A DNA stretch of 64,000 nucleotides. Source: Hyphomicrobiales bacterium. GTDB taxonomy: Bacteria; Pseudomonadota; Alphaproteobacteria; Rhizobiales; NORP267. The first letter of the stretch is position 1. Every line of letters begins with the position of its first letter. This document shows, piece after piece, positions 5,490 through 37,970 of the stretch. The notes under the pieces are model-generated. The model saw nothing but the letters and a program-made list of their open reading frames with translations. It did not search any database and was not told the DNA's origin. The stretch spans positions 213,544 to 277,543 of the forward strand of contig JAJFHA010000020.1 in NCBI GenBank assembly GCA_021775875.1, written 5' to 3'. Made by a program: the position numbers and the translations under genes.

Positions 5490-7588
5490 TCTTCGTCTTT
5501 AAGGAAATCGTGACTTTTAAGAGCCTTGTCGCCATGTTCGCGAATATCTTCATCAGCGGCAAAATAATCTTCCGTCATCCGCACCCGTGGCCGGTCGCCG
5601 GCAACAAACGGGTTATTGGTTGATTCATTCTGGGTGATGATCCGGCAATCGTCACACATGCGGATCAACTGGGCACGGTCGTCGCCCATGAACATGGAAT
5701 GTTTGTCGGTAAGCATTTCAGCAATCCGCTCGATCGTACCTTTCGAGCCAAATTCTTTCCCGCACCGGATACATTCAGCCGGTTCTTCTTCGTGCAGAAT
5801 ACGCGGCGACAAGGCTTCCGTCGCAAAATTGAACCGGGGCTCCAGTGTAATCACTTTTTCCGGGCAGGTCGTGGCACAAAGACCACACTGGACGCAGGCC
5901 CCTTCGAGGAACCGCACCTGAGGTTTGTCCGGATTATCATGCAGCGCATCCGCCGGGCAACAGGAGACGCAGGCAAGACACAAGGTGCAGCCTTCAGATG
6001 CAATTTTGATCTGGCCATAGGGCGACAATTCGGGTAGCGCAATTGTGTCTGGCGCGTCGATAGCGCGTTCGTGAAGTTTTATGAATGCAGCGCGCGCGAT
6101 CGCCCGCTTGCCACCAACGGGAGCGAACATGCCCGGCTCATCTGATTTGGCCAGGCGCCGTCCTGCGCCGCCAAGTCTGCCAGCGGGAAGTCCGCGGAGA
6201 GCGGCCTCTACGATTTCCGGATCTTGTTCAATGACAGCGTGGATACGCGCAGCTTCGTCCAGATCGAGACCTGATACCACAGTATTGGCAAGCCCAATTT
6301 GTGCTTCGAGCGTCGCGTTTTCCTCTGGCTTTTCCGGGGACGCAAGCACCAGCACATGCTCGGCACCAGCAGCAAGTGCGCTGGCAAAAATCTCATGGCC
6401 AAGCTGGCTCGGGGATTGCACCGCGATGGGCAGTACGTTGATCGGCAGGCCATCTCCATAGCGGGCTATGGCACTGATAATTTCCGCACCATGCTCCTGG
6501 TCATGCATCAGCAATACAGGGGCCTTGCCACCCGCGCCCGCATAAGTGGAGAGCAGAATTTGCATGCGATTGATCAGGTCTTCGCGGCGCGGCAACGCAT
6601 AGCTGACAGCGCCTGTCGGGCAAGATGAACTGCACATGCCGCATCCACCGCACACGGCCGCATCGACCGCAATATAATCACCCGCCGGTCCAATCGCACC
6701 GGTTGGGCAGACATCGAGACAATTATGGCACCCAACCTGATTGTTGCGACTATGAGCGCAAATATCAGGATCGAAATCCACATAAAGTGGTTTTTCAAAT
6801 TCGCCGATCATGTCCGAAATTTCAAACATCGCTTTTGCAATGCCTGCCGGGTGCTTCGGATCGACGCGGAAATACCCGTCCCGTCGATCATGTCCCGTGA
6901 ATAAGGGGCTGTTGTCGGACATATCGAAAATCAGGTCGCATTTAGACGCCGCACCATCCTTGGCCATCAGAAATTGCAGCGATGATTTCGAGGACGCCAT
7001 GACAGGTGCATAATTGTCGACGACAATTTCAAATGCGCCCAGATTGCCCGAGGCAAGGGAAATCTTGCCGCGATACATCGGAACCGTAACATTGGTCGGC
7101 GGCGTCACGTCGTCGGCGTCGCTGAATAGCAAAGTTACATTGAGGCGGGTAGATAATTGCGCCGCTACGTCCAGCGCTTCCTGTCCGCCGCCATAAACCA
7201 GACAAACCCCGTCTGAGCGCAGTAGCATCGACCCGGTCGGTTTGGGGATGTGAATGGCTTCCGCCAATAAAGCGGCAATTTTTGCGGTGGGTTTTGCTTT
7301 GCCCGTACACCATCCGGCGCGTTCGCGAATATTGACAAAGGTGAGGTCGGTATTGCTGTCGGCTTCGTCGGCCATTTCCCTGAACAGAGGAGCTTCTTGC
7401 GTGCATCCAACCAGCAGCGGCTCGCCGCTTTTTAACTCATTATCAAAAGCTTCAATTTCTATCCGGCAGAGATTGTTGTAGACATGCGGCTTTTCTTCCG
7501 CACCAAGTGCTTTGGCTATTCCGCCGGAATCCAGCTCCATGGTCTGTTCGCAATTGCAGACCAGGACCTTGCGGTCCTCAATTTTCAT
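5486..7588 (-). CDS. Large multi-cluster 4Fe-4S ferredoxin-type protein of the formate dehydrogenase locus
   Basis: A 700-residue cytoplasmic iron-sulfur protein. Cysteine motifs consistent with [4Fe-4S] clusters occur at 287-294 (CHNCLDVCP), 313-323 (CGGCGMCSSSCP), 534-544 (CTLCLACVSCCP) and 565-575 (CVQCGLCATTCP). Additional CxxC pairs occur at 606-609 and 645-648, the latter resembling a zinc or rubredoxin-like site. The first 270 residues hold scattered Cys (11, 13, 41, 62, 94). This large polyferredoxin is a frequent neighbour of alphaproteobacterial formate dehydrogenases and probably moves electrons between the enzyme and another acceptor, or assists assembly. It is transcribed away from DUF3305. 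Confidence 0.85.
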   Translation of the reverse strand: MKIEDRKVLVCNCEQTMELDSGGIAKALGAEEKPHVYNNLCRIEIEAFDNELKSGEPLLVGCTQEAPLFREMADEADSNTDLTFVNIRERAGWCTGKAKPTAKIAALLAEAIHIPKPTGSMLLRSDGVCLVYGGGQEALDVAAQLSTRLNVTLLFSDADDVTPPTNVTVPMYRGKISLASGNLGAFEIVVDNYAPVMASSKSSLQFLMAKDGAASKCDLIFDMSDNSPLFTGHDRRDGYFRVDPKHPAGIAKAMFEISDMIGEFEKPLYVDFDPDICAHSRNNQVGCHNCLDVCPTGAIGPAGDYIAVDAAVCGGCGMCSSSCPTGAVSYALPRREDLINRMQILLSTYAGAGGKAPVLLMHDQEHGAEIISAIARYGDGLPINVLPIAVQSPSQLGHEIFASALAAGAEHVLVLASPEKPEENATLEAQIGLANTVVSGLDLDEAARIHAVIEQDPEIVEAALRGLPAGRLGGAGRRLAKSDEPGMFAPVGGKRAIARAAFIKLHERAIDAPDTIALPELSPYGQIKIASEGCTLCLACVSCCPADALHDNPDKPQVRFLEGACVQCGLCATTCPEKVITLEPRFNFATEALSPRILHEEEPAECIRCGKEFGSKGTIERIAEMLTDKHSMFMGDDRAQLIRMCDDCRIITQNESTNNPFVAGDRPRVRMTEDYFAADEDIREHGDKALKSHDFLKDED

Positions 7589-7675
7589 CGCGACGCTCCC
7601 ACAATTCCACCCTCAACCCGATTTTCATACATATCGAAACCCGGAAAAACACTTTTGCCCATTCTAACCATCTCC

Positions 7676-7690
7676 CTGGTTCGGAACCAG
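7676..7690. repeat. Hairpin in the divergent promoter region
   Basis: CTGGTT-CGG-AACCAG is a perfect 6-base-pair inverted repeat in the 189-base gap between the divergent polyferredoxin and DUF3305 genes. The position fits an operator or leader hairpin. No recognised regulator consensus was identified. Confidence 0.3.
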
Positions 7691-7777
7691 TCCAAAAAGC
7701 TGTAAGCTGCATCCTGAAAGGCTATAGTGTTTTTCAGGAATAGGATGAATGAGGGAAAATTGGACAAGGAAATTACA

Positions 7778-8314
7778 ATGTCGCTCGGCGTTGTTGTCGA
7801 GAAGCGCAAATCGGATCACAAATGGATCGACTGGGTGTGGAAGCCGGTTGCCGTGATCCCCGGGGCCGGGCTACATAACGATTGGCTTGAAGTCGGGTCG
7901 GGAGACGGCTGGACCCATTTTCTTGTGGGGACCTTGCCGTTGACTTTGCATCGCACCGAAACAGACGCCTATGTTATGAATCTCTCGGACAACCAGCCTT
8001 CAATATATACCGTACTGCGTGAAAATGATGATAACAAAGATGGCACCAAGCCGTACCTGGCGCATCTTGTCACTGCGTCGCCGTTTGAAGCCCAGGATTT
8101 TGAAGATTCCGGCGAAGATATTATCGAGCGCATCGCCATGCCGGATAGTTTGATTGCCTGGGTTCAGGATTTTGTCGGAGCCCATCATGTTGACGAACCG
8201 TTTGTGAAACGCAAGCGCCGGGATATTCGCGATGAACCCGAGAAATTCGGCAAAGAACCGATTTTCGAACAATCCAGGCAATCCTCCGGGAAGGGGCCGG
8301 AAAATGACCAGTAA
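7778..8314 (+). CDS. DUF3305 family protein
   Basis: The 178-residue protein has the DUF3305 signature at its N-terminus: MSLGVVVEKRKSDHKWIDW, then WKPVAVIPG and a LPLTLHRTETDAYVMNL segment. The start at 7778 has AAGGA at 7765-7769 in good position; an ATG at 7745 is possible but would add a non-conserved leader. The tail from about residue 140 is charged. It overlaps the DUF3306 start. DUF3305 and DUF3306 occur together with formate dehydrogenase and its ferredoxin in many alphaproteobacteria; the molecular role is unknown. Confidence 0.85.
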   Translation: MSLGVVVEKRKSDHKWIDWVWKPVAVIPGAGLHNDWLEVGSGDGWTHFLVGTLPLTLHRTETDAYVMNLSDNQPSIYTVLRENDDNKDGTKPYLAHLVTASPFEAQDFEDSGEDIIERIAMPDSLIAWVQDFVGAHHVDEPFVKRKRRDIRDEPEKFGKEPIFEQSRQSSGKGPENDQ

Positions 8315-26699: not shown

Positions 26700-27416
26700 A
26701 TGAAATTCAAAACAGACTTTAAAAATTTAGAGCCAGCCGAGCTTGAAAAAATGCAGGCGGCAGGAAACAGAATTGAAGAATGTTACCGGCTGCTCCGCAA
26801 AGCCAGCGCGAATGTAGTGGGGCAATGCCTGGCCAACCAGGCCAAATTCATCGAATTTGATCATTATCCCAAAGGCGATATTTTCGACAAGGAAACCAAG
26901 AGCCAATATTATTATCATGCCCACCGTCCGGAATCTGGTGAGCACGGCCATTTCCATACCTTCGTGCGGTCCGGCGCAATCCCCGACGATATCAAAACGG
27001 TCCCCTATGAGGGCGAGGTTGAAGTGCCGTCCGGCGACGATGCCATTTGTCACCTGATCGCGGTATCCATGAACGGTCCGGGCTACCCGATCGGGTTATT
27101 CTCGACCAACCGGTGGGTCACCGGAGAAACGTTCTATTCCGCCGAAGACACGATCCGGTTGCTCGATACATTCCTGATCGATCACACTTACCCATGTCTT
27201 GCAGCTAATCGCTGGATTTCAGCCATGCTGTGCTTGTTCAGGCCGCAGATTGTCGCGCTTATTTGGGAGCGAGATCGAACAATCGAGAGCCGGCGCACCA
27301 AACATCCTGATAAAGATGTTTATGAAGACCGGGATCTGGAACTCACTTCTATATTGAAAATCGACGTGGACAAACAACGTCTTGCCGTGGATAAGGCGAT
27401 TGAAAGCCAGTCCTGA
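26700..27416 (+). CDS. DUF6969-like protein of unknown function
   Basis: A 238-residue protein without signal peptide or membrane helix. The central His-rich segment YYYHAHRPESGEHGHFHTFV (about residues 77-96) and FSTNRWVTGETFYSAED match the DUF6969 pattern as I remember it. The clustered His could bind a metal. The C-terminal third is helical and charged. It is the first gene of the cysteine-repeat cluster, although a 148-base gap separates it from the next gene, so co-transcription is uncertain. Confidence 0.65.
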   Translation: MKFKTDFKNLEPAELEKMQAAGNRIEECYRLLRKASANVVGQCLANQAKFIEFDHYPKGDIFDKETKSQYYYHAHRPESGEHGHFHTFVRSGAIPDDIKTVPYEGEVEVPSGDDAICHLIAVSMNGPGYPIGLFSTNRWVTGETFYSAEDTIRLLDTFLIDHTYPCLAANRWISAMLCLFRPQIVALIWERDRTIESRRTKHPDKDVYEDRDLELTSILKIDVDKQRLAVDKAIESQS

Positions 27417-27564: not shown

Positions 27565-28062
27565 ATGCGCAAAGAAGCGCTGATGTTGATGAGTACAATT
27601 TTATTGGGCGCGATTTCGATCGCTACAACTGGCACGGTGTCTTCTGCCACCGCGCAGGAGGCAACAATCATCAATCTGACCCAGGTTGGGTGTCAGTTCC
27701 TTGAATCCGAAAATGACGTTGACCATGGCTACGTGACCAAATCCGCCGACGATTGTGTCGAGATCAATGGTCGTACCGGCGAACAGAGGCTGGCCGAGGC
27801 CCGTGTTTTGGACCTGCCGCCGGGCAAATATATTTTTCGGGTGGAGAATAGAAATGTACCTTACCCACTTGGTTTCTGGTTGCGCGAGCATGATTACCAG
27901 CTTGGAAACCCCATCCATCTGCTTACCAAAACCAGCATTTCCGGCGGCGGTCTCAATATTGGAACCACGCTTGATTACGAAGTCGAATTGGAGGCTGGCA
28001 CTCAATATGTCTATTCTTGCCCGCTGAACCCAACACCAAATTATTCGATTGTCGTGAACTGA
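27565..28062 (+). CDS. Exported cupredoxin-like beta protein
   Basis: A 165-residue protein with a signal peptide ending near SSATAQEA. The mature part is predicted all-beta, with LDLPPGKYIFRVENRNVPYPLGFWL and YEVELEAGTQYVYSCPLNPTPNYSIVV, reminiscent of cupredoxin strands. The final YSC segment aligns with the copper-ligand Cys loop, but the His and Met that normally follow are absent, so a type 1 copper site is unlikely to be canonical. Two further Cys (VGCQFLE, DDCVEING) may form a disulfide. It lies upstream of the cysteine-repeat genes and probably shares their periplasmic role. Confidence 0.65.
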   Translation: MRKEALMLMSTILLGAISIATTGTVSSATAQEATIINLTQVGCQFLESENDVDHGYVTKSADDCVEINGRTGEQRLAEARVLDLPPGKYIFRVENRNVPYPLGFWLREHDYQLGNPIHLLTKTSISGGGLNIGTTLDYEVELEAGTQYVYSCPLNPTPNYSIVVN

Positions 28063-28163: not shown

Positions 28164-28457
28164 ATGAGCAGTAACAAAAAGAGACTTTTGACTTCCACCG
28201 CAATTTTGCCGGTTGTTCTTGGCCTGTCGTTGGCCGTGCCAGCTGTCATGACCGCAGCAGTTGTAGATGCGTCCCCCGCATATGCCAGCTGTAACCCATG
28301 CAATCCATGCGCTGCCAAAAATCCTTGCGGCGCGTCCGCATGTGGTGCCTGTGGTGCCAGTAACGCTTGCGCTGCCAGCAACCCTTGTGCCGCCAGTAAC
28401 CCTTGTGGCGCGTCCGCATGTGGTGCCTGTGGTGCCAGCTCATGTTCCGCTGACTAG
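28164..28457 (+). CDS. Small exported cysteine-repeat protein (NPC/GAC type)
   Basis: A 97-residue protein with a signal peptide (about 1-42, ending SPAYAS). The remaining 55 residues consist almost only of Cys, Ala, Gly, Ser, Asn and Pro. Twelve Cys occur in a strict rhythm: CNPCNPC, then units such as AASNPC, GASAC and GAC. GAGGGAG gives a strong ribosome site. No His or Met is present in the mature part and only one charged pair occurs, so this is not a classical metallothionein. The same units fill the much larger protein at 29647. The next gene, SUMF1-like, starts 12 bases later. It may bind copper or zinc, or be a substrate for modification. Confidence 0.8.
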   Translation: MSSNKKRLLTSTAILPVVLGLSLAVPAVMTAAVVDASPAYASCNPCNPCAAKNPCGASACGACGASNACAASNPCAASNPCGASACGACGASSCSAD

Positions 28458-28469
28458 TTTTGCGCTAAC

Positions 28470-29423
28470 ATGGACGGCAATATGACCCATTTGGATCAAT
28501 TGCCTTCAAAAATTTTGACCCGGAATATGGGGCCTTCACCGGCACTCATGTTTCGGGTTTTATTTTTTTTGGTTCTGGCCGCTTTTATGCTCACGGTGCC
28601 CCTCCAGAATGTTTTGAGCGACGAATCCCTGACAATTGAGGTTCCGGAAATTGTTTTGGTTGCGGCTGGTAGTTTTATCGCTGGCTCTGACCGGGCCGAA
28701 CGTGAAGCCGCTTACCAGCTTGATGAAGCTGCCTATGGGCACAACGTGACGAGGCAAAACCGCTGGTATGAAAGCGAATTGGCCCGTCAGAGCGTTGACC
28801 TGCCATCTTTCGGAATTATGAAAAATCTGGTCACGAACGCTGACTATTCCCGTTTTGTTGCCGAAACCGGCCACCGGGTTCCTGATGTAGACCCGGAAAC
28901 CTGGGCAGGCTACCGCTTGATCCATCCGTTCCCGCGCACCAGACGGCATGCTTGGCTGGGCGGAACAATTCCCGAAGGCCGCGAAGAGCATCCTGTTGTC
29001 ATGATCTCTCATGGCGATGCCGCTGCCTATGCAGCATGGTTGAGCGAACGGACAGGAATTGAATGGCGCTTGCCCAGCGCACTCGAATGGCAGAAAGCGG
29101 CACGCGGTCTAAACGGCCTGCGGTTCCCTTGGGGAGATGAATATGATTCTGGCTTGTTGAATAGCCATGATGCCGGACCGTTCGACACTGTCCCTGTAGG
29201 GCGATTCCCGGAGGGTGCCAGCCCGTTCGGAATGCTGGATGCTGCGGGTCAGGTTTTTGAATGGACCAACACCCCGGCCCGCAATGGTCGATGGATCGTT
29301 AAAGGTGGGTCATGGGATGATCGCGGATGCGGTGTTTGTCGCCCGGCGGCACGCCATTCCAGGCCTGAAGACATCAAGCATATTCTGGTTGGTTTCCGCC
29401 TGGTTAGAGACATAAACGGATAA
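28470..29423 (+). CDS. Exported formylglycine-generating-enzyme-like (SUMF1/EgtB-fold) protein
   Basis: A 317-residue protein with an N-terminal membrane anchor or signal (about residues 27-50) and a full FGE-sulfatase domain: VLVAAGSFIAGSDRAEREA, HPVVMISHGDAAAYAAWLSERTG, EWRLPSALEWQKAARG, FPWGDEYDSGLLN and WIVKGGSWDDRG, ending FRLVRD. In aerobic FGE two Cys near the C-terminal GGS motif hold Cu(I). Here C287 and C290 form CGVC shortly after GGSW, and the first of them matches one FGE cysteine by distance to the following AAR. The exact start (28470, 28482 or 28527) is uncertain. It lies 12 bases after the small cysteine-repeat gene, which could be its substrate. Confidence 0.85.
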   Translation: MDGNMTHLDQLPSKILTRNMGPSPALMFRVLFFLVLAAFMLTVPLQNVLSDESLTIEVPEIVLVAAGSFIAGSDRAEREAAYQLDEAAYGHNVTRQNRWYESELARQSVDLPSFGIMKNLVTNADYSRFVAETGHRVPDVDPETWAGYRLIHPFPRTRRHAWLGGTIPEGREEHPVVMISHGDAAAYAAWLSERTGIEWRLPSALEWQKAARGLNGLRFPWGDEYDSGLLNSHDAGPFDTVPVGRFPEGASPFGMLDAAGQVFEWTNTPARNGRWIVKGGSWDDRGCGVCRPAARHSRPEDIKHILVGFRLVRDING

Positions 29424-29646
29424 CATTTCTGTCGAATCATCTGTAGTCTGACTAACTAGCGGGGTCATCAGCGCATCGTGGGCCAAATTGCTTCACATCT
29501 ATGTGATCGCAAGTGAATCGATTTGTCCGAAATGGTTGATAGTCTGGACACTGTAATTCGAGGCCGGTGCTCGGGCTTTAATCAATCATGGCATGATATA
29601 CGCCAAGACCAACTTGGCAGCATTCATCCGTTTGGAGGGAAACCAG

Positions 29647-31143
29647 ATGAAATTTTCTAAGAAACAGCTTTTATCAACCGTTGCGGCGATGCCGTTGGTT
29701 GTGGGCATTGCCGTAGGCACTGCTGCAACCGGCGCAATGATGATTGCTGCAACTGAGGTTGCGATTGCAGCCTGTAATCCATGCAACCCGTGTGGCGCAT
29801 CAACTTGCGCTGCTTCCAACCCATGCGCGGCTTCAAACCCGTGTGCTGCTTCTGCGTGTGGCGCCTGCAGTGCTTCGACCTGCGGCGCATCCGCATGCGC
29901 AGCGTCCAACCCATGCGCGGCGTCTAACCCGTGTGCTGCATCAGCGTGTGGCGCCTGTGGTGCTTCGGCCTGCGGCGCATCCGCATGTGCAGCGTCCAAC
30001 CCATGCGCGGCTTCTAACCCGTGTGCTGCTTCAGCATGCGGTGCCTGCGGTGCTTCGGCCTGCGGTGCTTCGGCCTGCGGTGCATCCGCATGTGCAGCGT
30101 CCAACCCATGCGCGGCATCTAACCCGTGTGCTGCTTCTGCGTGTGGCGCCTGCGGCGCCTGCGGTGCTTCGGCTTGCGGCGCATCCGCATGTGCAGCGTC
30201 CAACCCATGCGCGGCTTCCAACCCGTGTGCTGCATCAGCGTGTGGTGCCTGCGGTGCTTCAGCCTGCGGCGCATCCGCATGCAATCCCTGTAATCCATGC
30301 GCGGCGTCAAATCCGTGTGGAGCATCTGCTTGTGGTGCGTGCAACCCGTGTGGCGCATCTGCTTGTGGTGCGTGCAACCCGTGTGGCGCTGCAGCGGCCA
30401 ACGTCAGCAAGGAATGCTTTGTTCCACGCTTGCATAATGCCGCCAGCAATCCATGTGCAGCTTCAAACCCGTGTGCTGCATCAGCTTGCAGGGCATGTGG
30501 TGCGTCAGCATGTAACCCTTGCAATCCGTGTGGGGCGTCGAACCCATGCGCAGCTTCCAATCCGTGCGCGGCATCAAACCCCTGTGGTGCATCTGCGTGT
30601 GGAGCATGTGGCCCGTGTGGCGCAAGCGGTGGCGGAGCTGAGTTGACTGATGCGGAAGCAGCGGCAGCGTATGATTGCCTCTACAGCGAAATGAAGGAAG
30701 CTTATGCCAATACCCGCATTCCAGCGACCCGCAATTGGCGCGCCTGGGCTACACAATTCTCCACAACACCTTATGTTTCGGCAACTCATGGCGGCCGTTA
30801 TGTGATGAATTATTCAAACACCATGGGCGCAAGAGCTTATGGCGAATATGAAGAAATGACTGAGATGCCCCGGTCTTCGGTGCTTATCAAAGACAGTTTC
30901 TCCGCCAATGCCGACGGCACCTTGTCGGTTGGTCCGCTGTTCCTGATGGAAAAAATGGGCCCTGGCTTCAATGCTGAAACCGCCGATTGGCGCTATTATA
31001 TGTTCACGCCGGACGGGTCTTTGTTCGGCGTAACCGGCGGTCAGAATTCAGCCGGCCTGGCCTTCTGTCATGAATGTCACGCGGCCATGGAAGACAATGA
31101 CCATATGTGGTTCCTGCCTGAAGAATACCGGGTTTCAAACTAG
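29647..31143 (+). CDS. Exported cysteine-repeat / cytochrome P460 fusion
   Basis: A 498-residue protein from ATG 29647, preceded by GGAGGG. Residues 1 to about 41 form a signal peptide. Residues 43-324 are a low-complexity domain of AASNPC, GASAC and GAC units with about 59 Cys, interrupted once by a non-repetitive stretch (ANVSKECFVPRLHNA). From about 340 to the end is a cytochrome P460 domain: GGRYVMNYSNTMG, SSVLIKDSF, GPLFLMEKMGPGF and the haem site CHECH at 474-478. P460 proteins handle hydroxylamine or nitric oxide. A haem domain on a long Cys-repeat arm is very unusual and suggests an extracellular metal- or redox-linked matrix protein. Confidence 0.85.
   Translation: MKFSKKQLLSTVAAMPLVVGIAVGTAATGAMMIAATEVAIAACNPCNPCGASTCAASNPCAASNPCAASACGACSASTCGASACAASNPCAASNPCAASACGACGASACGASACAASNPCAASNPCAASACGACGASACGASACGASACAASNPCAASNPCAASACGACGACGASACGASACAASNPCAASNPCAASACGACGASACGASACNPCNPCAASNPCGASACGACNPCGASACGACNPCGAAAANVSKECFVPRLHNAASNPCAASNPCAASACRACGASACNPCNPCGASNPCAASNPCAASNPCGASACGACGPCGASGGGAELTDAEAAAAYDCLYSEMKEAYANTRIPATRNWRAWATQFSTTPYVSATHGGRYVMNYSNTMGARAYGEYEEMTEMPRSSVLIKDSFSANADGTLSVGPLFLMEKMGPGFNAETADWRYYMFTPDGSLFGVTGGQNSAGLAFCHECHAAMEDNDHMWFLPEEYRVSN
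29770..30640 (+). repeat. In-frame tandem repeats coding for the Cys-rich arm
   Basis: The DNA consists of degenerate tandem units of about 90 bases. A marker sequence in each unit (GCAGCGTCCAACCCATG) recurs near 29899, 29989, 30094 and 30193, giving spacings of 90, 105 and 99 bases. The differences are whole codon blocks (an extra GASAC or GAC). Third-position changes between units show that they diverged under protein-level constraint. The last third is less regular. Confidence 0.85.
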
Positions 31144-31160: not shown

Positions 31161-31655
31161 ATGAGTAAGTCTGATGATAAGCGGCTGCCCCCGATTCCGG
31201 GTGTGGCCGTTTGTCTGCTCATCACAATGTTGCTGGCCGTGCCGGCGCAAGCCGAGACGGTAACAGGGATGCTCGGCGAAGCGGTCGACGGCGATACCCT
31301 TATACTGAACGGGCGCAATTTTGATCTCTCTGGAATTGTGGCACCAGCGCCTGGATTCATGTGCACCTTACGCAACCGGGAAAGCAATTGCGGCAGCATC
31401 GCGCGCGGTGGATTGCTTGATCTGATGGCAGGCGCAACCGTGACTTGCGAAACCGACGGCGCAGAGTGGCGTTGTAGCGCCGGGGGATATGATCTGGCCC
31501 AGAACATGGTCCATACCGGATGGGCTGTGCCTGCAAGAGATGATGATCCCCGGTTCGCAACCCAATTGGAACGCGCCCAAAGCCGGAAACAGGGATTGTG
31601 GCACGCAGACCCTGAATTAACGATTGGGGAAATCCGAACTGCTGGGCAGCGCTAA
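31161..31655 (+). CDS. Exported staphylococcal-nuclease-fold protein, probably not catalytic
   Basis: A 164-residue protein with a signal peptide ending VPAQAET. EAVDGDTLILNG and FDLSGIVAPAPG match the SNase core, and the C-terminal GWAVPARDDD...ERAQSRKQGLWH matches its last helix. The RLxGIDAPE segment that carries a catalytic Arg reads FDLSGIVAPA here, and the usual second Arg is also not evident, so nuclease activity is doubtful. Four Cys (FMCTLR, SNCGS, VTCET, WRCSA) could form two disulfides. It starts 17 bases after the P460 fusion and is probably part of the same operon. Confidence 0.75.
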   Translation: MSKSDDKRLPPIPGVAVCLLITMLLAVPAQAETVTGMLGEAVDGDTLILNGRNFDLSGIVAPAPGFMCTLRNRESNCGSIARGGLLDLMAGATVTCETDGAEWRCSAGGYDLAQNMVHTGWAVPARDDDPRFATQLERAQSRKQGLWHADPELTIGEIRTAGQR

Positions 31656-31671
31656 TATTTAACCAGTATGG

Positions 31672-33699
31672 TCAGGCGGAAATTGCCATGTTGTTTTTTT
31701 GAGTAATCGGCAGACACACCGTGAATGTGGTCCCTGAGCCGACAACACTTTCCAGAGAAATTTTGCCGCCATGTTGTTCGGTCAGTTGCTGGGCTATATT
31801 CAGGCCGATACCGGTGCCGACAATCCCTTCAGACGTAGAGGCCCTGTAAAAGCGCTCGAACATTTTATCGATCTCGTCTGCAGGTATTCCCACACCGCAG
31901 TCAGTTATGGATATGAGTACGTGCCCCTCACCTTGGCAACCTGCAATGCAGACTAGACCAGCTGTTGGTGAATATTTAACCGCGTTGGAAATCAGGTTAG
32001 TGAATATTTGTTCCAAAGCACCTGCATCTGCTTCAATAAAGTCTGGCATCGAATCCAGATCAACTTCAATTGTATGACTAGGACTTATCAGTCCTTGTCG
32101 TTTTGCAATTCCTGAAATGATGGACTTTAATTTACAATTTGTAATGGAGATTTTATACCCGCTTTCCTCCATTTTGGCGGATGCCAGCGTGCGGTCAATG
32201 AGTTCAGTCATGCGCGTAACAGCACCGCGAATATCGATAATTTTCGCGTCAACTTCCTCGCGATTCAGCTTGTCAAATTTCAGCCCAATCCGGCGCGCTG
32301 TGCTGTCAATTATTGTCAAAGGCGTACGGAAGTCGTGGGATACGGTCGAGACAAACTGGCTTTGCTGTTTGTTATAATGCTGCTCCAACTCAAGAGATGC
32401 CTGGAGTTGTTCGGATTTTTTGCGCAGTCGTGATGTTTGCTCGGCGACCATAATAGCAAGCTCTTCTCGATGCCGTGCCAGTTCCTGGTCTTTTGCTTTT
32501 TGTTCCGTTACATCGATAGTGAAGGCGAAGGACCCTATGGTTTCACCTTTAATGTTGCGCAGGCTTGTCGCATAGAAAATGGTGTCGATCTTGGTTCCGT
32601 CTTTTCGGACAAGGACAGGTTCGTAGGTTCGTCGGAAATTATGCTCCCGTTGGGCCATCTTCCGGCGCACCAACTCTGAGGATTCTAGGTTAACGATATC
32701 AATCGCCGGTTGGCCAATCAGTTCTTCACGTTCGTAACCAAGCATGTCGCAGAAGGCACGATTGACCCGGTTAAACTTACCATCAATATCTATCTGGGAA
32801 TAACCATGCTGGGTATTTTCCAGTGTGGCGGTCAAAAGCCCTTCACTAGACGTCAATTGACCAACCAATGCGTAGCCCCGGCGAAAATTCTTGTAGGTGC
32901 TGATCTGAAGTCCAATCAGGACGAGGGTGTAACTCATGATTTTCAGAATATGGGCCAGAATAAACGGGAAATCCGAGTACCCTTCAGAGTTTGACATGAC
33001 CATGGCATGAGCAACCACATTCAGCATCAAGGCCAAGGCCAACCAGAATTTAAAGGAGTTCGGGTGCCAGCCTCCGTGACCCTGCAATTTAAATAGCGCA
33101 AAGGTGAAAATCAGTGCGGGTAGCCATTCTTCAAAACTTCGAAGGAAAGGAAGGTTAAAATTATTGTCGCCCGCAAATATTTGGATCGGGTAGAAAAGAA
33201 TGAAAATACCGGCAGCGACAAACAGGCCGGTCGCAAAAAATACCTGTTTTTCAATCTGGTGAATTTTGTTGTCGTGGCTGTGCCAATCTGTGTCTTCCGG
33301 GCGCTCAGTATGTGTGGCTGCCAAGACCATCATGATGCCCAAAAACACACTCCCGTAAAACCAGCTTTCGGGACCAGATGATGACATGTCTCTTTCAGCA
33401 AATTGATTCAGGTGAGTTAGATCGGTCACCAAATAGAAAACATCCTGAAGGGTAAACCCGAGAAACCCCGCGCCAACATACAAAAAAACAGCCCGTCGTC
33501 TGTTGAAATACCAACCTAGAGAAGCGAAACCGATATAAATCATCAGAACCACAGTGATTGTCTTCAAAACAGTGCGGGAATATTCCGGAAATATCCAGGC
33601 TTCAGGGTTAGCAGCACATTTCACCATCAGCGCACCAACGATGGCGATGGTCAAAACGGTGACAATCGGCAACACTTTATCGTGTTTTGTGTCCATCAT
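31672..33699 (-). CDS. Hybrid-topology sensor histidine kinase (7TM-PAS-HisKA-HATPase)
   Basis: A 675-residue membrane kinase. About seven transmembrane helices fill residues 1-275 (a MASE-type sensor), followed by a PAS domain (about 285-400; NRVNRAFCDMLGYEREELIG), a coiled linker, HisKA with SHDFRTPLTIID and a HATPase domain with NLISNAVKYSP, DCGVGIP and GTGIGLNIAQQL. It is encoded 19 bases after the response regulator, so the two form a two-component pair. The inducing signal is unknown; the multi-helix sensor suggests a membrane or small-molecule cue. Confidence 0.92.
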   Translation of the reverse strand: MMDTKHDKVLPIVTVLTIAIVGALMVKCAANPEAWIFPEYSRTVLKTITVVLMIYIGFASLGWYFNRRRAVFLYVGAGFLGFTLQDVFYLVTDLTHLNQFAERDMSSSGPESWFYGSVFLGIMMVLAATHTERPEDTDWHSHDNKIHQIEKQVFFATGLFVAAGIFILFYPIQIFAGDNNFNLPFLRSFEEWLPALIFTFALFKLQGHGGWHPNSFKFWLALALMLNVVAHAMVMSNSEGYSDFPFILAHILKIMSYTLVLIGLQISTYKNFRRGYALVGQLTSSEGLLTATLENTQHGYSQIDIDGKFNRVNRAFCDMLGYEREELIGQPAIDIVNLESSELVRRKMAQREHNFRRTYEPVLVRKDGTKIDTIFYATSLRNIKGETIGSFAFTIDVTEQKAKDQELARHREELAIMVAEQTSRLRKKSEQLQASLELEQHYNKQQSQFVSTVSHDFRTPLTIIDSTARRIGLKFDKLNREEVDAKIIDIRGAVTRMTELIDRTLASAKMEESGYKISITNCKLKSIISGIAKRQGLISPSHTIEVDLDSMPDFIEADAGALEQIFTNLISNAVKYSPTAGLVCIAGCQGEGHVLISITDCGVGIPADEIDKMFERFYRASTSEGIVGTGIGLNIAQQLTEQHGGKISLESVVGSGTTFTVCLPITQKNNMAISA

Positions 33700-33718
33700 A
33701 ATTGGTCCTAGTTGGCGG

Positions 33719-34591
33719 TCAGGATGCCATCAAGACCGGAGTCCCGCTCGCATTGTCCAGCGAGTTGATTTGTGCTGCAAATTCATCGCCGCTGCATGGC
33801 ATTTGAATGATCGCGTCGAACCAGCTTTCGTGTGAGGGGTTCAACCGGTTCTGATTTAATGGCGGCACCAACAACACAATCGGAAATGCACATTCGCGCT
33901 CGGCTTTAATCAACCGCACCATCATCGAAGCGGGCATATCTGACGTGTTTAACGAAACAATCACCAAGTCCGGCGCAATATTATCCACCGACGCCTGAAA
34001 GACGACACCGCTATCCATTTTGATAACCTGATGGTTCTGTGCCTCCAGCGTTTCTCTTATTTCAGACAGATCCACTTCATTATTCGAAATGGTAACGACC
34101 ATCATTTGCGGTGTTTCTTCGGTTGGTTTGGCATGTGCGGAATCCACCGCATGATCTAGAGATTTGGATAAGGCGTTGTAAAGTTTAAGTAATTGGTTTT
34201 GTTTTTGTTGCTCCATGCGCTTCACCTGATGGAGCCTCGATCTCACCGTGGCAAGCATCATTTCATAGTCAATAGGCTTGGTTAGATAATCGTCTGCCCC
34301 CAATGACTTACCCTTGATAATATCTTGCCGGTCCGCTAGGGCAGACAGAAACACAACCGGAATATCTGCGAGATCAGGATGGTTATCGCGAAGCGCGATC
34401 AACATCTCGTGGCCATTCATTTTTGGCATTGTGATATCTGACAAAACCAAGTCTGGCTTGTTCGCTATAATTGAAGCCAGTCCTTCGGCACCATCGCACG
34501 CCTGCAGGACTTCAAATCCATAGCTCTCCAGTTCCATCGCAACATCATTGCGAATTACAGGTTCGTCTTCAACGATAAGTATCTTCTTCAT
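33719..34591 (-). CDS. Response regulator with true receiver and C-terminal pseudo-receiver
   Basis: A 290-residue protein starting MKKILIVEDEPVIRND at ATG 34591. The N-terminal receiver has the acidic pair E9/D10, phospho-acceptor D52 (LSDITMPKMNG) and the conserved K of LTKPID. A linker follows, then a second receiver-like fold (MMVVTISNNEVDLSEI onward) with hydrophobic strands but no phospho-acceptor Asp. No DNA-binding or enzymatic output domain is present, so it probably works through protein interaction with the kinase encoded next or with a third partner. Confidence 0.88.
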   Translation of the reverse strand: MKKILIVEDEPVIRNDVAMELESYGFEVLQACDGAEGLASIIANKPDLVLSDITMPKMNGHEMLIALRDNHPDLADIPVVFLSALADRQDIIKGKSLGADDYLTKPIDYEMMLATVRSRLHQVKRMEQQKQNQLLKLYNALSKSLDHAVDSAHAKPTEETPQMMVVTISNNEVDLSEIRETLEAQNHQVIKMDSGVVFQASVDNIAPDLVIVSLNTSDMPASMMVRLIKAERECAFPIVLLVPPLNQNRLNPSHESWFDAIIQMPCSGDEFAAQINSLDNASGTPVLMAS

Positions 34592-35032
34592 CCTCGCCCC
34601 GAAAAATCTTAAAGTATTAATATGCAAAGATTACAGGGGAAGAGATTAATAATAAGTTGTTCACCTTGCATGAAGAATTCTATGTGAACTGGGGTCAATA
34701 TTGGCTCAAAGGAGCAAATGAGCGTGTTTGCTCCGTTCGATATATCTAACTGTTATTCTCAAGGCCCAGTAGGCATGATTTTCGGGTAGATTATAGTCCG
34801 TTCGTCCTCCAAACCAATCCGCTTTCGTCGTTGATGGTCCCATACTCTAAGCGAAGAGGGTTGTGCCTCAGCAACCATCACCTGTTGCAAGCGTAATAAA
34901 TACGTATATCGAAATGGCAGTTGCGTCGCATTGCAAAGTAGACAGGGACAATTCCCGGGCAAATTGGGACGTGTGGGCAGGTTAGGCTGTTCGCCCTTGT
35001 TTGACTATTCGGTATAAGGCATAGACACCATC
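34592..35032. other. Intergenic region upstream of the two-component and MFS genes
   Basis: This 441-base gap lies between divergent genes and should hold their promoters. It contains a perfect inverted repeat at 34711-34734 (listed separately). I see no protein on either strand with a ribosome site or composition like the neighbours, and no tRNA or known RNA motif. Confidence 0.55.
34711..34734. repeat. Perfect 8-base inverted repeat
   Basis: GGAGCAAA-TGAGCGTG-TTTGCTCC lies in the gap 120 bases upstream of the response regulator gene. The half-site spacing of 16 bases centre to centre fits binding by a dimeric regulator on one face of the helix. It could be an autoregulatory operator or a short structured RNA element. 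Confidence 0.4.
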
Positions 35033-36494: not shown

Positions 36495-37970
36495 ATGTCA
36501 GAAGCACATAACCCTATCGAGGCGGACCAGGAATTTCACGCCATGCCGAACTATCCGGCTAATTCGGGTTATTCGGCCATTCCGGATTATCCGGCGATCG
36601 TTGATCTCGCCGATGCTAACCGGTGCAATCCAAACTCAGATGAGGATACGGGTCCAAACCCTTACATTAAGCAAGATGAGATGGCTGCTGTCTGCGAGCC
36701 CGCCAAAGCCGGAATCCCGGCGGAAATTTCACCCGATACAGATCAGGTGCAGGATCCGGAAGAATTTCTCCGGGCCCTTGATGAAGCGCTCGCTGCAGTA
36801 CGGACCGTCTCGAATGATGATGATCTGGAACGCCAAATGGCAGGTAGCGGATTGCAAATAGGCACTAGCGACGAACGGGTGGAAGAATCTTCCAAACTCA
36901 CCGAGCGCGAAAATACGCCGCCAGAAATTCCAAATGCTTTTCAGGTCCAGGCGCGCCAATCGCGAGGCATCGGATTATTTGCGATTCTGGCAGGCTTCGC
37001 TTCCATCGTGCTTGCAGGATTTTTAGCGCTCTATTTTATGAATTACCCCATGTCATTGCCGGGTTTTGGGCAAACGCCGATTGATATCCAGACCGCGCCA
37101 CCGGTTGTTGAACATTCCCGAATCGAACAGCCAGTTGACCTGCAACCTATCCAGGTTGCGAGTGTTGTGGTGCGGGCAAATCCGACAATCGCCATACACC
37201 CGGTCGAAGGCGTTTCTGGTGCCGCGATCCCGTTGAGAGTGGAAATCGACCCTGTCGCCGGTCTTGGCGCGAGCCTTGCGATCAGCGGTTTGCCGGAAGG
37301 AGCTGGCCTGTCTGCCGGGATCGAAACCAGTCGGGGTGCCTGGCTTGTTGATGCAAATGCCCTCGCGTCGCTCGCTCTGTTTACTCCGATGGGCGCAACT
37401 GGTTCCTACGATATCCGGGTGCAGCTCATTGGTCAGGACGGCAAGGTCGTGGACAGCAAATTGCTGCCCGTGCGCCTGTTGCCGGGCAACCTGAATGTTC
37501 CCGCTCCGGCCACAAACTCGACTGCCGACGTTCAGGCAAAAGACCAATCACGCATCGCCACAAGCGAAGACGTGGAAACAAGCAATGGTGAAAATGACCT
37601 GGTCGCCAAGATCATTGTTGGCAATCAATTGGCCAGCACTTCGGGTTCGACACCAATGCCGATTACACCGATCACCTCAATTGATCCGTCTGTGATTGTG
37701 GATCAGGCCGATACCCTGCTGGCGCGCGGTGATATCGAAACTGCCCGCACGCTTTATGAAGAAGCCGCCAATGCCGGTGACGCGGAAGCAGCTCTCAAGG
37801 CGGGCATGACCTATGACCCGCTTTATTTGAGTGCCGAAGCTGCATCGGTGAATTCCACAACGGCGGAACCAGGTACGTCTTTGGTATGGTACGCCCGAGC
37901 GATTGGGCTTGGTTCAAGCGCCGCCGAACCGCGCCGCGACGCTCTTAATAGTTTTATCGCGACCAATTAG
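36495..37970 (+). CDS. Membrane-anchored protein with disordered N-terminus and Sel1-like repeats
   Basis: A 491-residue protein preceded by AGGAG. Residues 1 to about 150 are acidic and disordered, with a short repeat rich in Tyr and Pro (PNYPANSGYSAIPDYPA). One transmembrane helix follows (about 158-180; GLFAILAGFASIVLAGFLAL). The remainder is outside the cytoplasm: a beta-rich middle part and C-terminal Sel1/TPR-like helices (DTLLARGDIETARTLYEEAANAGDAEAALKAG). This resembles alphaproteobacterial envelope scaffold proteins. No enzymatic motif; function unknown. Confidence 0.7.
   Translation: MSEAHNPIEADQEFHAMPNYPANSGYSAIPDYPAIVDLADANRCNPNSDEDTGPNPYIKQDEMAAVCEPAKAGIPAEISPDTDQVQDPEEFLRALDEALAAVRTVSNDDDLERQMAGSGLQIGTSDERVEESSKLTERENTPPEIPNAFQVQARQSRGIGLFAILAGFASIVLAGFLALYFMNYPMSLPGFGQTPIDIQTAPPVVEHSRIEQPVDLQPIQVASVVVRANPTIAIHPVEGVSGAAIPLRVEIDPVAGLGASLAISGLPEGAGLSAGIETSRGAWLVDANALASLALFTPMGATGSYDIRVQLIGQDGKVVDSKLLPVRLLPGNLNVPAPATNSTADVQAKDQSRIATSEDVETSNGENDLVAKIIVGNQLASTSGSTPMPITPITSIDPSVIVDQADTLLARGDIETARTLYEEAANAGDAEAALKAGMTYDPLYLSAEAASVNSTTAEPGTSLVWYARAIGLGSSAAEPRRDALNSFIATN

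Follow-up and report, generated by a model that had tools for sequence, protein, structure and literature searches.

What would a bacterium do with a haem domain carried at the end of a long, cysteine-rich chain? This is the question raised by one gene in the window, by which we mean the whole stretch of 64,000 nucleotides that was analysed. The original prediction described the product of positions 29647–31143 (plus strand) as a cytochrome P460 fused to an arm with about 59 cysteines, and supposed that the arm might bind metal ions or crosslink into a disulfide network. Below we ask whether the fusion is genuine, what accompanies it, and which function fits the evidence best.

A cytochrome P460 domain joined to a cysteine-repeat arm

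Translation of 29647–31143 gives a protein of 498 amino acids without an internal stop. An alternative ATG at 29593 would lengthen it to 516 amino acids, and we favour the start at 29647 because the sequence GGAGGG lies directly upstream of it. Residues 1–42 (29647–29772, plus strand) look by eye like a long putative signal peptide, with a hydrophobic N-terminus and the residues AIAA before the first arm cysteine. The arm itself spans residues 43–324 (29773–30618, plus strand) and holds 59 cysteines in 282 residues, just as had been predicted, and consists almost entirely of Ala, Cys, Ser, Gly, Asn and Pro, which bears out the composition given in the original prediction. That description nevertheless overlooked two things, namely a second Cys-repeat protein at 28164–28457, to which we return below, and an interruption of the arm by CFVPRL at residues 257–262 (30415–30432, plus strand). 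The interruption belongs to a non-repeat piece, SKECFVPRLHN, that divides the arm in two, and its motif, C-x-[VI]-P-[RST]-x, recurs in 32 of 44 arm–P460 proteins.

The arm is composed of tandem units and the underlying DNA is repetitive, as would be expected if chance repeat DNA or a frameshift had fused two genes. We regard such an origin as almost inconceivable. The same fusion is found in more than 40 other proteins, which rules out a sequencing frameshift joining two genes, and its carriers include two congeners and several other families of the order among the 121 related genomes that we compared, so that the check for a homologue came out in favour of the prediction as well. The fusion is thus independently present in many genomes. 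Moreover, the cysteine codons of the arm are mixed (30 TGT and 29 TGC), and 70 of the 80 nucleotide differences between repeat units that encode identical peptides fall at third codon positions, which together argue that the arm peptide is under selection and did not arise by chance. On the evidence of its sequence, the arm–P460 protein is a genuine bacterial fusion protein that is predicted to be exported. Long mirror open reading frames over the repeat region (29586–30560 on the minus strand and 29744–30646 on the plus strand) seem to be side effects of the repeat codons and not genes.

Across the family, the arm is highly variable in both length and sequence, with from fewer than 10 to 111 cysteines. 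Examples range from CNPCNPCAAKKA and CAASNPCAAS to NPCAPANPCAAMKPM, the last being a Met-rich arm from locus L089. Despite this variation the arms consist mainly of Ala, Cys, Pro, Asn and Lys with a Cys density of at least 20%, and 77% of neighbouring arm cysteines are spaced by a multiple of three residues. The L089 protein (6990–8084; Thermopetrobacter) has 13 Met and 15 Cys in an arm of 117 residues. At another locus, L087 (2500–4064), a Met-rich arm and a P460 domain are encoded on two separate open reading frames, which means that the gene is split or that the assembly is in error. A signal-peptide motif, LLST...P, is common to Hyphomicrobiales, and 24 of 85 sequences fit it when a strict pattern is used; we considered that the signal peptide might be a conserved leader recognised in the cytoplasm and rejected the idea, the motif being absent in Beta- and Gammaproteobacteria.

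The haem domain has the residues of a true cytochrome P460

The C-terminal domain (residues 331–498; 30637–31140, plus strand) matches the cytochrome P460 profile PF16694 above its cut-off, as predicted (E = 2.1e-06 and 28.6 bits against a cut-off of 27 for the full protein; E = 2e-07 for the domain alone), and PF16694 is matched by 13 of 13 arm-borne domains. Its CHECH haem c attachment motif is located at residues 474–478 (31066–31080, plus strand), and alignment with homologues indicates that the two cysteines and the final histidine are kept in all 42 sequences that extend that far. We aligned a profile of the 13 arm-borne domains to solved structures and took the reference positions from a published residue table, in which Nitrosomonas europaea P460 (NeP460) has Lys70 and Glu96 where the Thermus cytochrome c'-beta (TtCP-beta) has Phe61 and Gly82 (PMC11928373). 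K415 (codon at 30889–30891, plus strand) aligns with the haem cross-linking Lys70 and with Phe61, and is Lys in 45 of 45 sequences, so that the absence of a Lys at this position that marks cytochrome c'-beta is not found here. E435 (codon at 30949–30951, plus strand) aligns with the distal carboxylate Glu96 and with Gly82, with a gap nearby, and is Glu in 44 of 44. In addition, H381 and R384 are invariant and have the same spacing as Phe41 and Arg44 of NeP460. Because the K415 and E435 positions are invariant, we predict that the window protein is a true cytochrome P460 and not a c'-beta.

The arm-borne domain therefore retains the residues of the hydroxylamine-oxidising members of the family. 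The same residues are found in 14 of 17 arm-less paralogues, which argues that the arm is not needed for the haem chemistry. In a tree of 64 P460 domains we count 7 changes between armed and bare forms, as against 16.6 in shuffles, suggesting that the arm is passed on by descent and has been gained or lost a few times.

The fusion gene belongs to a conserved cassette

The original prediction considered this gene on its own. It is one member of a conserved set of genes, and arms are also encoded without any haem domain or joined to a haem domain of another kind. In the window, six genes lie on the plus strand in the order DUF6969, cupredoxin-like, arm-only Cys protein, SUMF1-like, arm–P460 and SNase-like, and this cassette recurs complete or mostly complete in G001, G002, G011, G097, G051, G082, G040, G115 and G081. 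Cultured bacteria that carry it include Hoeflea poritis, Nitratireductor sp. XY-223 and Denitrobaculum tricleocarpae.

The first gene (26700–27416) encodes a DUF6969 protein (PF22308, E = 5.4e-77) of 238 amino acids with multi-His motifs and, by eye, no signal peptide. Residues H55, H73, H75, H84, H86, D60, D63 and E81 are invariant in 80 of 80 proteins from the best 80 of at least 575 DUF6969 loci, a pattern of histidines that suggests a metal-dependent enzyme or a metal chaperone. Its structure model is confident (pLDDT 87.9), and comparison of the fold with the PDB gave no usable relative (best Foldseek E 0.49; best VIA-align Z 3.2). The second gene (27565–28062) encodes a cupredoxin-like protein of 165 amino acids, predicted to be exported, which has weak matches to azurin profiles (E = 0.27), has a C-terminal loop without the customary copper-loop His and Met and occurs in 12 of the best 80 of at least 575 loci; its structural matches were set aside since the model was too poor (pLDDT 55.6). 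The arm-only Cys-repeat protein (28164–28457) has 97 amino acids, 12 of them Cys, and a signal peptide related to that of the arm–P460 protein, and has equivalents in many DUF6969 loci.

The fourth gene (28470–29423) encodes a SUMF1/FGE-like protein of 317 amino acids (PF03781, E = 8.3e-42) with a hydrophobic N-terminus and predicted export. The copper-binding cysteine pair of FGE is spaced C-x4-C; here the loop reads GGSWDDxGCGVCR, in which GCGVCR is invariant, giving an invariant C-x2-C after GGSW in place of the C-x4-C copper pair. The target motif of FGE is CxPxR, which the C-x-[VI]-P-R of the arm resembles. A strict rule by which SUMF1 converts this motif is unsupported: the motif occurs at two loci from Rhodobacterales genomes in which no SUMF1 of the cassette subfamily was found, and SUMF1 is present without the motif at locus L066. 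Finally, the SNase-like gene (31161–31655) encodes a protein of 164 amino acids with predicted export, four invariant cysteines and a weak match to PF00565 (E = 0.09), and adjoins the arm–P460 gene in most cassettes of the order.

Convergent with the cassette, on the minus strand at 31672–34627, is a pair of genes encoding a response regulator and a histidine kinase whose sensor is MASE3-like, a neighbourhood that is not kept outside the genus. Further downstream, a plus-strand open reading frame of 491 amino acids (36495–37970) has no Pfam match at E 0.001 and is conserved in two congeners. A plasmid search with the locus gave no match.

Arms co-occur with DUF6969 and SUMF1, and the haem domain varies

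Arms are present in 14 of the 121 related genomes. DUF6969 is found in 13 of these 14 as against 5 of the 107 others (p = 1e-12; by genus p = 5e-8), and the SUMF1 subfamily of the cassette in 11 of 14 as against 1 of 107 (p = 3e-12; by genus 2e-7), where these p values are corrected only in part for shared ancestry. In 17 further genomes with an arm–P460 protein but no SUMF1 in the fetched flanks, SUMF1 is encoded elsewhere in 9 and was not found in 8, some of which are incomplete. SUMF1 of the cassette subfamily was likewise not found in the Thermopetrobacter genome of locus L089, nor in eight genomes with SoxA-type arms; it does lie close to the cytochrome c arms at two loci of Gammaproteobacteria (L127 and L130).

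DUF6969 occurs in 20 of 398 genomes sampled evenly across the phylum, and a scan of GTDB with DUF6969 yielded at least 575 loci; we retrieved the best 80 together with their flanks. Among these best 80, at least one Cys-repeat protein is encoded in the fetched flanks of 62, and a P460 match, nearly always arm-borne, in 46. A small class I cytochrome c gene is found in 10 of the same best 80 of at least 575 loci; at L114, L116, L126, L140, L141 and others it adjoins DUF6969 with no Cys-repeat gene nearby. At L118 (7826–10729), DUF6969 adjoins MNIO (PF05114) and DUF2063, the maturation pair of the bufferins, the sole such case among the best 80 of at least 575 loci.

A different haem domain, a SoxA/TsdA-type cytochrome c (PF21342), takes the place of P460 on the arm in Hyphomicrobium, Beta- and Gammaproteobacteria; in the last two groups it is flanked by arms on both sides. 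Since the haem domain swaps, the constant elements are the arm, DUF6969 and a c-type haem. A gene for YeeE/YedE sulphur transport is found in 8, and a DUF302 gene in 9, of the best 80 of at least 575 DUF6969 loci, the carriers being some of the loci with SoxA/TsdA-type arms together with the Pelagibius group.

Possible functions of the arm

Outside the cytoplasm, the system probably serves to sequester a soft metal, for instance copper, or to handle sulfur. Our best explanation, to which we give a probability of about 0.4, is that a conserved polythiol system operates outside the cytoplasm, with the arm–P460 protein as its haem-bearing component and with the arm as a buffer for a soft metal, most likely Cu(I). 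The protein would be exported by Sec, its CHECH motif would receive a c-type haem and K415 would form the haem cross-link. Acting as a bufferin-like thiolate buffer, the 59 cysteines of the arm would then bind numerous soft metal ions, of which Cu(I) is the likeliest, and the adjacent haem could carry out redox chemistry on the metal, on an N-oxide or on peroxide. In the cytoplasm, DUF6969 may prepare or chaperone the Cys-rich precursor; the SUMF1-like protein may act on the arm cysteines once these have been exported.

Metal binding by the arm is plausible from its sequence, and a Cu(I) buffer is our best guess because of the density of cysteines, the Met-rich arm variants, which fit soft-metal binding, the parallel with bufferins and the smaller number of classical bufferins. 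Specifically, classical Buf1 (DUF2282) is rarer in genomes with arms (4 of 14, as against 66 of 107; p = 0.02, by genus p = 0.08), and replacement of classical bufferins by the arm system would fit this, weakly. Further points in its favour are the invariant catalytic residues of P460, the ties between arms and both DUF6969 and the SUMF1 subfamily, and the bufferin maturation pair next to DUF6969 at L118. Against a metal stand the arms of SoxA/TsdA type and the YeeE/YedE neighbours, which point to sulfur, the absence of FGE's C-x4-C copper pair from the SUMF1-like protein, and the lack of any recurrent copper gene among the surveyed neighbours of the cassette.

The main rival to a metal buffer is a sulfur carrier, in which the arm thiols hold sulfane sulfur or thiosulfate in persulfide or polysulfide form, in the manner of a many-site version of the SoxYZ carrier cysteine, and the fused haem, whether P460 or SoxA/TsdA-type, makes or breaks S–S bonds. 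The junction of the arm to SoxA/TsdA-type cytochromes and the nearby YeeE/YedE and DUF302 genes argue for such a carrier. We nonetheless consider it doubtful, as the cassette in the window has no sulfur gene, SoxY (PF13501) has no match in the window's genome or its congeners (G000, G001 and G002), and SoxY is not associated with arms (10 of 14, as against 65 of 107; p = 0.56), which led us to reject a dependence of the arms on Sox. Cytochromes P460 are not known to carry out sulfur chemistry. It is unlikely, though conceivable, that DUF6969 represents a new class of enzyme that modifies cysteine peptides and matures a haem-fused Cys-rich peptide, the Cys-derived groups so installed in the arm being a metal or sulfur cofactor for the P460 or SoxA-type haem.

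The disulfide network of the original prediction, in which intermolecular cross-links between arm cysteines hold the haem domain in a surface or envelope layer, would account for a high Cys content in a protein with predicted export, could find a partner in the arm-only protein of the same locus, and is in keeping with low-complexity arms of variable length that resemble structural repeat proteins. Nothing further in favour of it emerged, however: the cassette contains no gene for surface anchoring or secretion, and the regular presence of DUF6969 and SUMF1 with the arm suggests that some chemistry, and not mere cross-linking, takes place there, so that a matrix or tether seems improbable. We judge it quite improbable that the protein serves to detoxify NO or hydroxylamine, with a haem that oxidises NH2OH or binds NO and arm thiols that capture reactive nitrogen products, either as S-nitrosothiols or with bound iron. 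In favour, the two residues that have been linked to the oxidation of NH2OH by cytochromes P460 are invariant here; against this, most arm-less paralogues also keep them, making the haem chemistry independent of the arm, and the arm is found on a haem domain of another family as well. For these reasons we retain the soft-metal buffer as the preferred, if tentative, reading.

Comparison with known systems

Cytochrome P460, FGE-like proteins and Cys-rich copper peptides are each already known. In the open-licence papers searched we found no description of this gene system, which spans many proteobacteria, of a fusion between P460 and a Cys arm or of an NPC-repeat family (searches with NPC-repeat strings returned unrelated matches only), and no mention of DUF6969 or its function, although any of these may have been mentioned earlier elsewhere. 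With the cytochromes P460 (PF16694), such as NeP460 and McP460, the window protein shares the domain family, the CxxCH motif and the positions of the cross-link Lys and distal carboxylate, and it differs from them by its arm, about 280 residues long, and by lying in a conserved gene neighbourhood; a review of the P460 family does not mention fusions (PMC11928373). A protein known as a small soluble member of nitrogen metabolism thus also serves, in many alphaproteobacteria, as the predicted redox head of a long polythiol protein.

The product of 28470–29423 has the same domain as FGE, PvdO, EgtB and ToxD (PF03781) and is predicted to be exported, as PvdO is, but has the invariant CxxC loop instead of the copper pair of FGE. 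Relative to SoxA/TsdA and SoxYZ, a similar arm is borne by a SoxA/TsdA-type haem domain in other proteobacteria, whereas the window protein has P460. Metallothioneins are likewise Cys-dense chains of low complexity; the arm differs in being joined to a haem domain, in its predicted export and in its repeats of NPC, CAAK and CGAS type, which match no family.

The nearest described parallel is provided by the bufferins (Buf1/DUF2282 and Buf2, with MNIO and DUF2063), which are Cys-rich and exported, occur in arm-only and fused forms, bind copper and include rare fusions with both cytochrome c and an FGE domain (PMC12452194). In bufferins, the cysteines that bind the copper carry post-translational modifications. 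DUF2282 gave no match in a Pfam scan of P0001 and P0002, the arm included, and neither MNIO nor DUF2063 was matched among the scanned proteins of the window cassette. The arm differs from bufferins in having far more cysteines and in being accompanied by DUF6969 instead of MNIO and DUF2063. The wider system, with at least 575 DUF6969 loci among GTDB species, offers a testable role for DUF6969 and for the SUMF1 subfamily, and may constitute a second widespread periplasmic route for copper or sulfur beside that of the bufferins.
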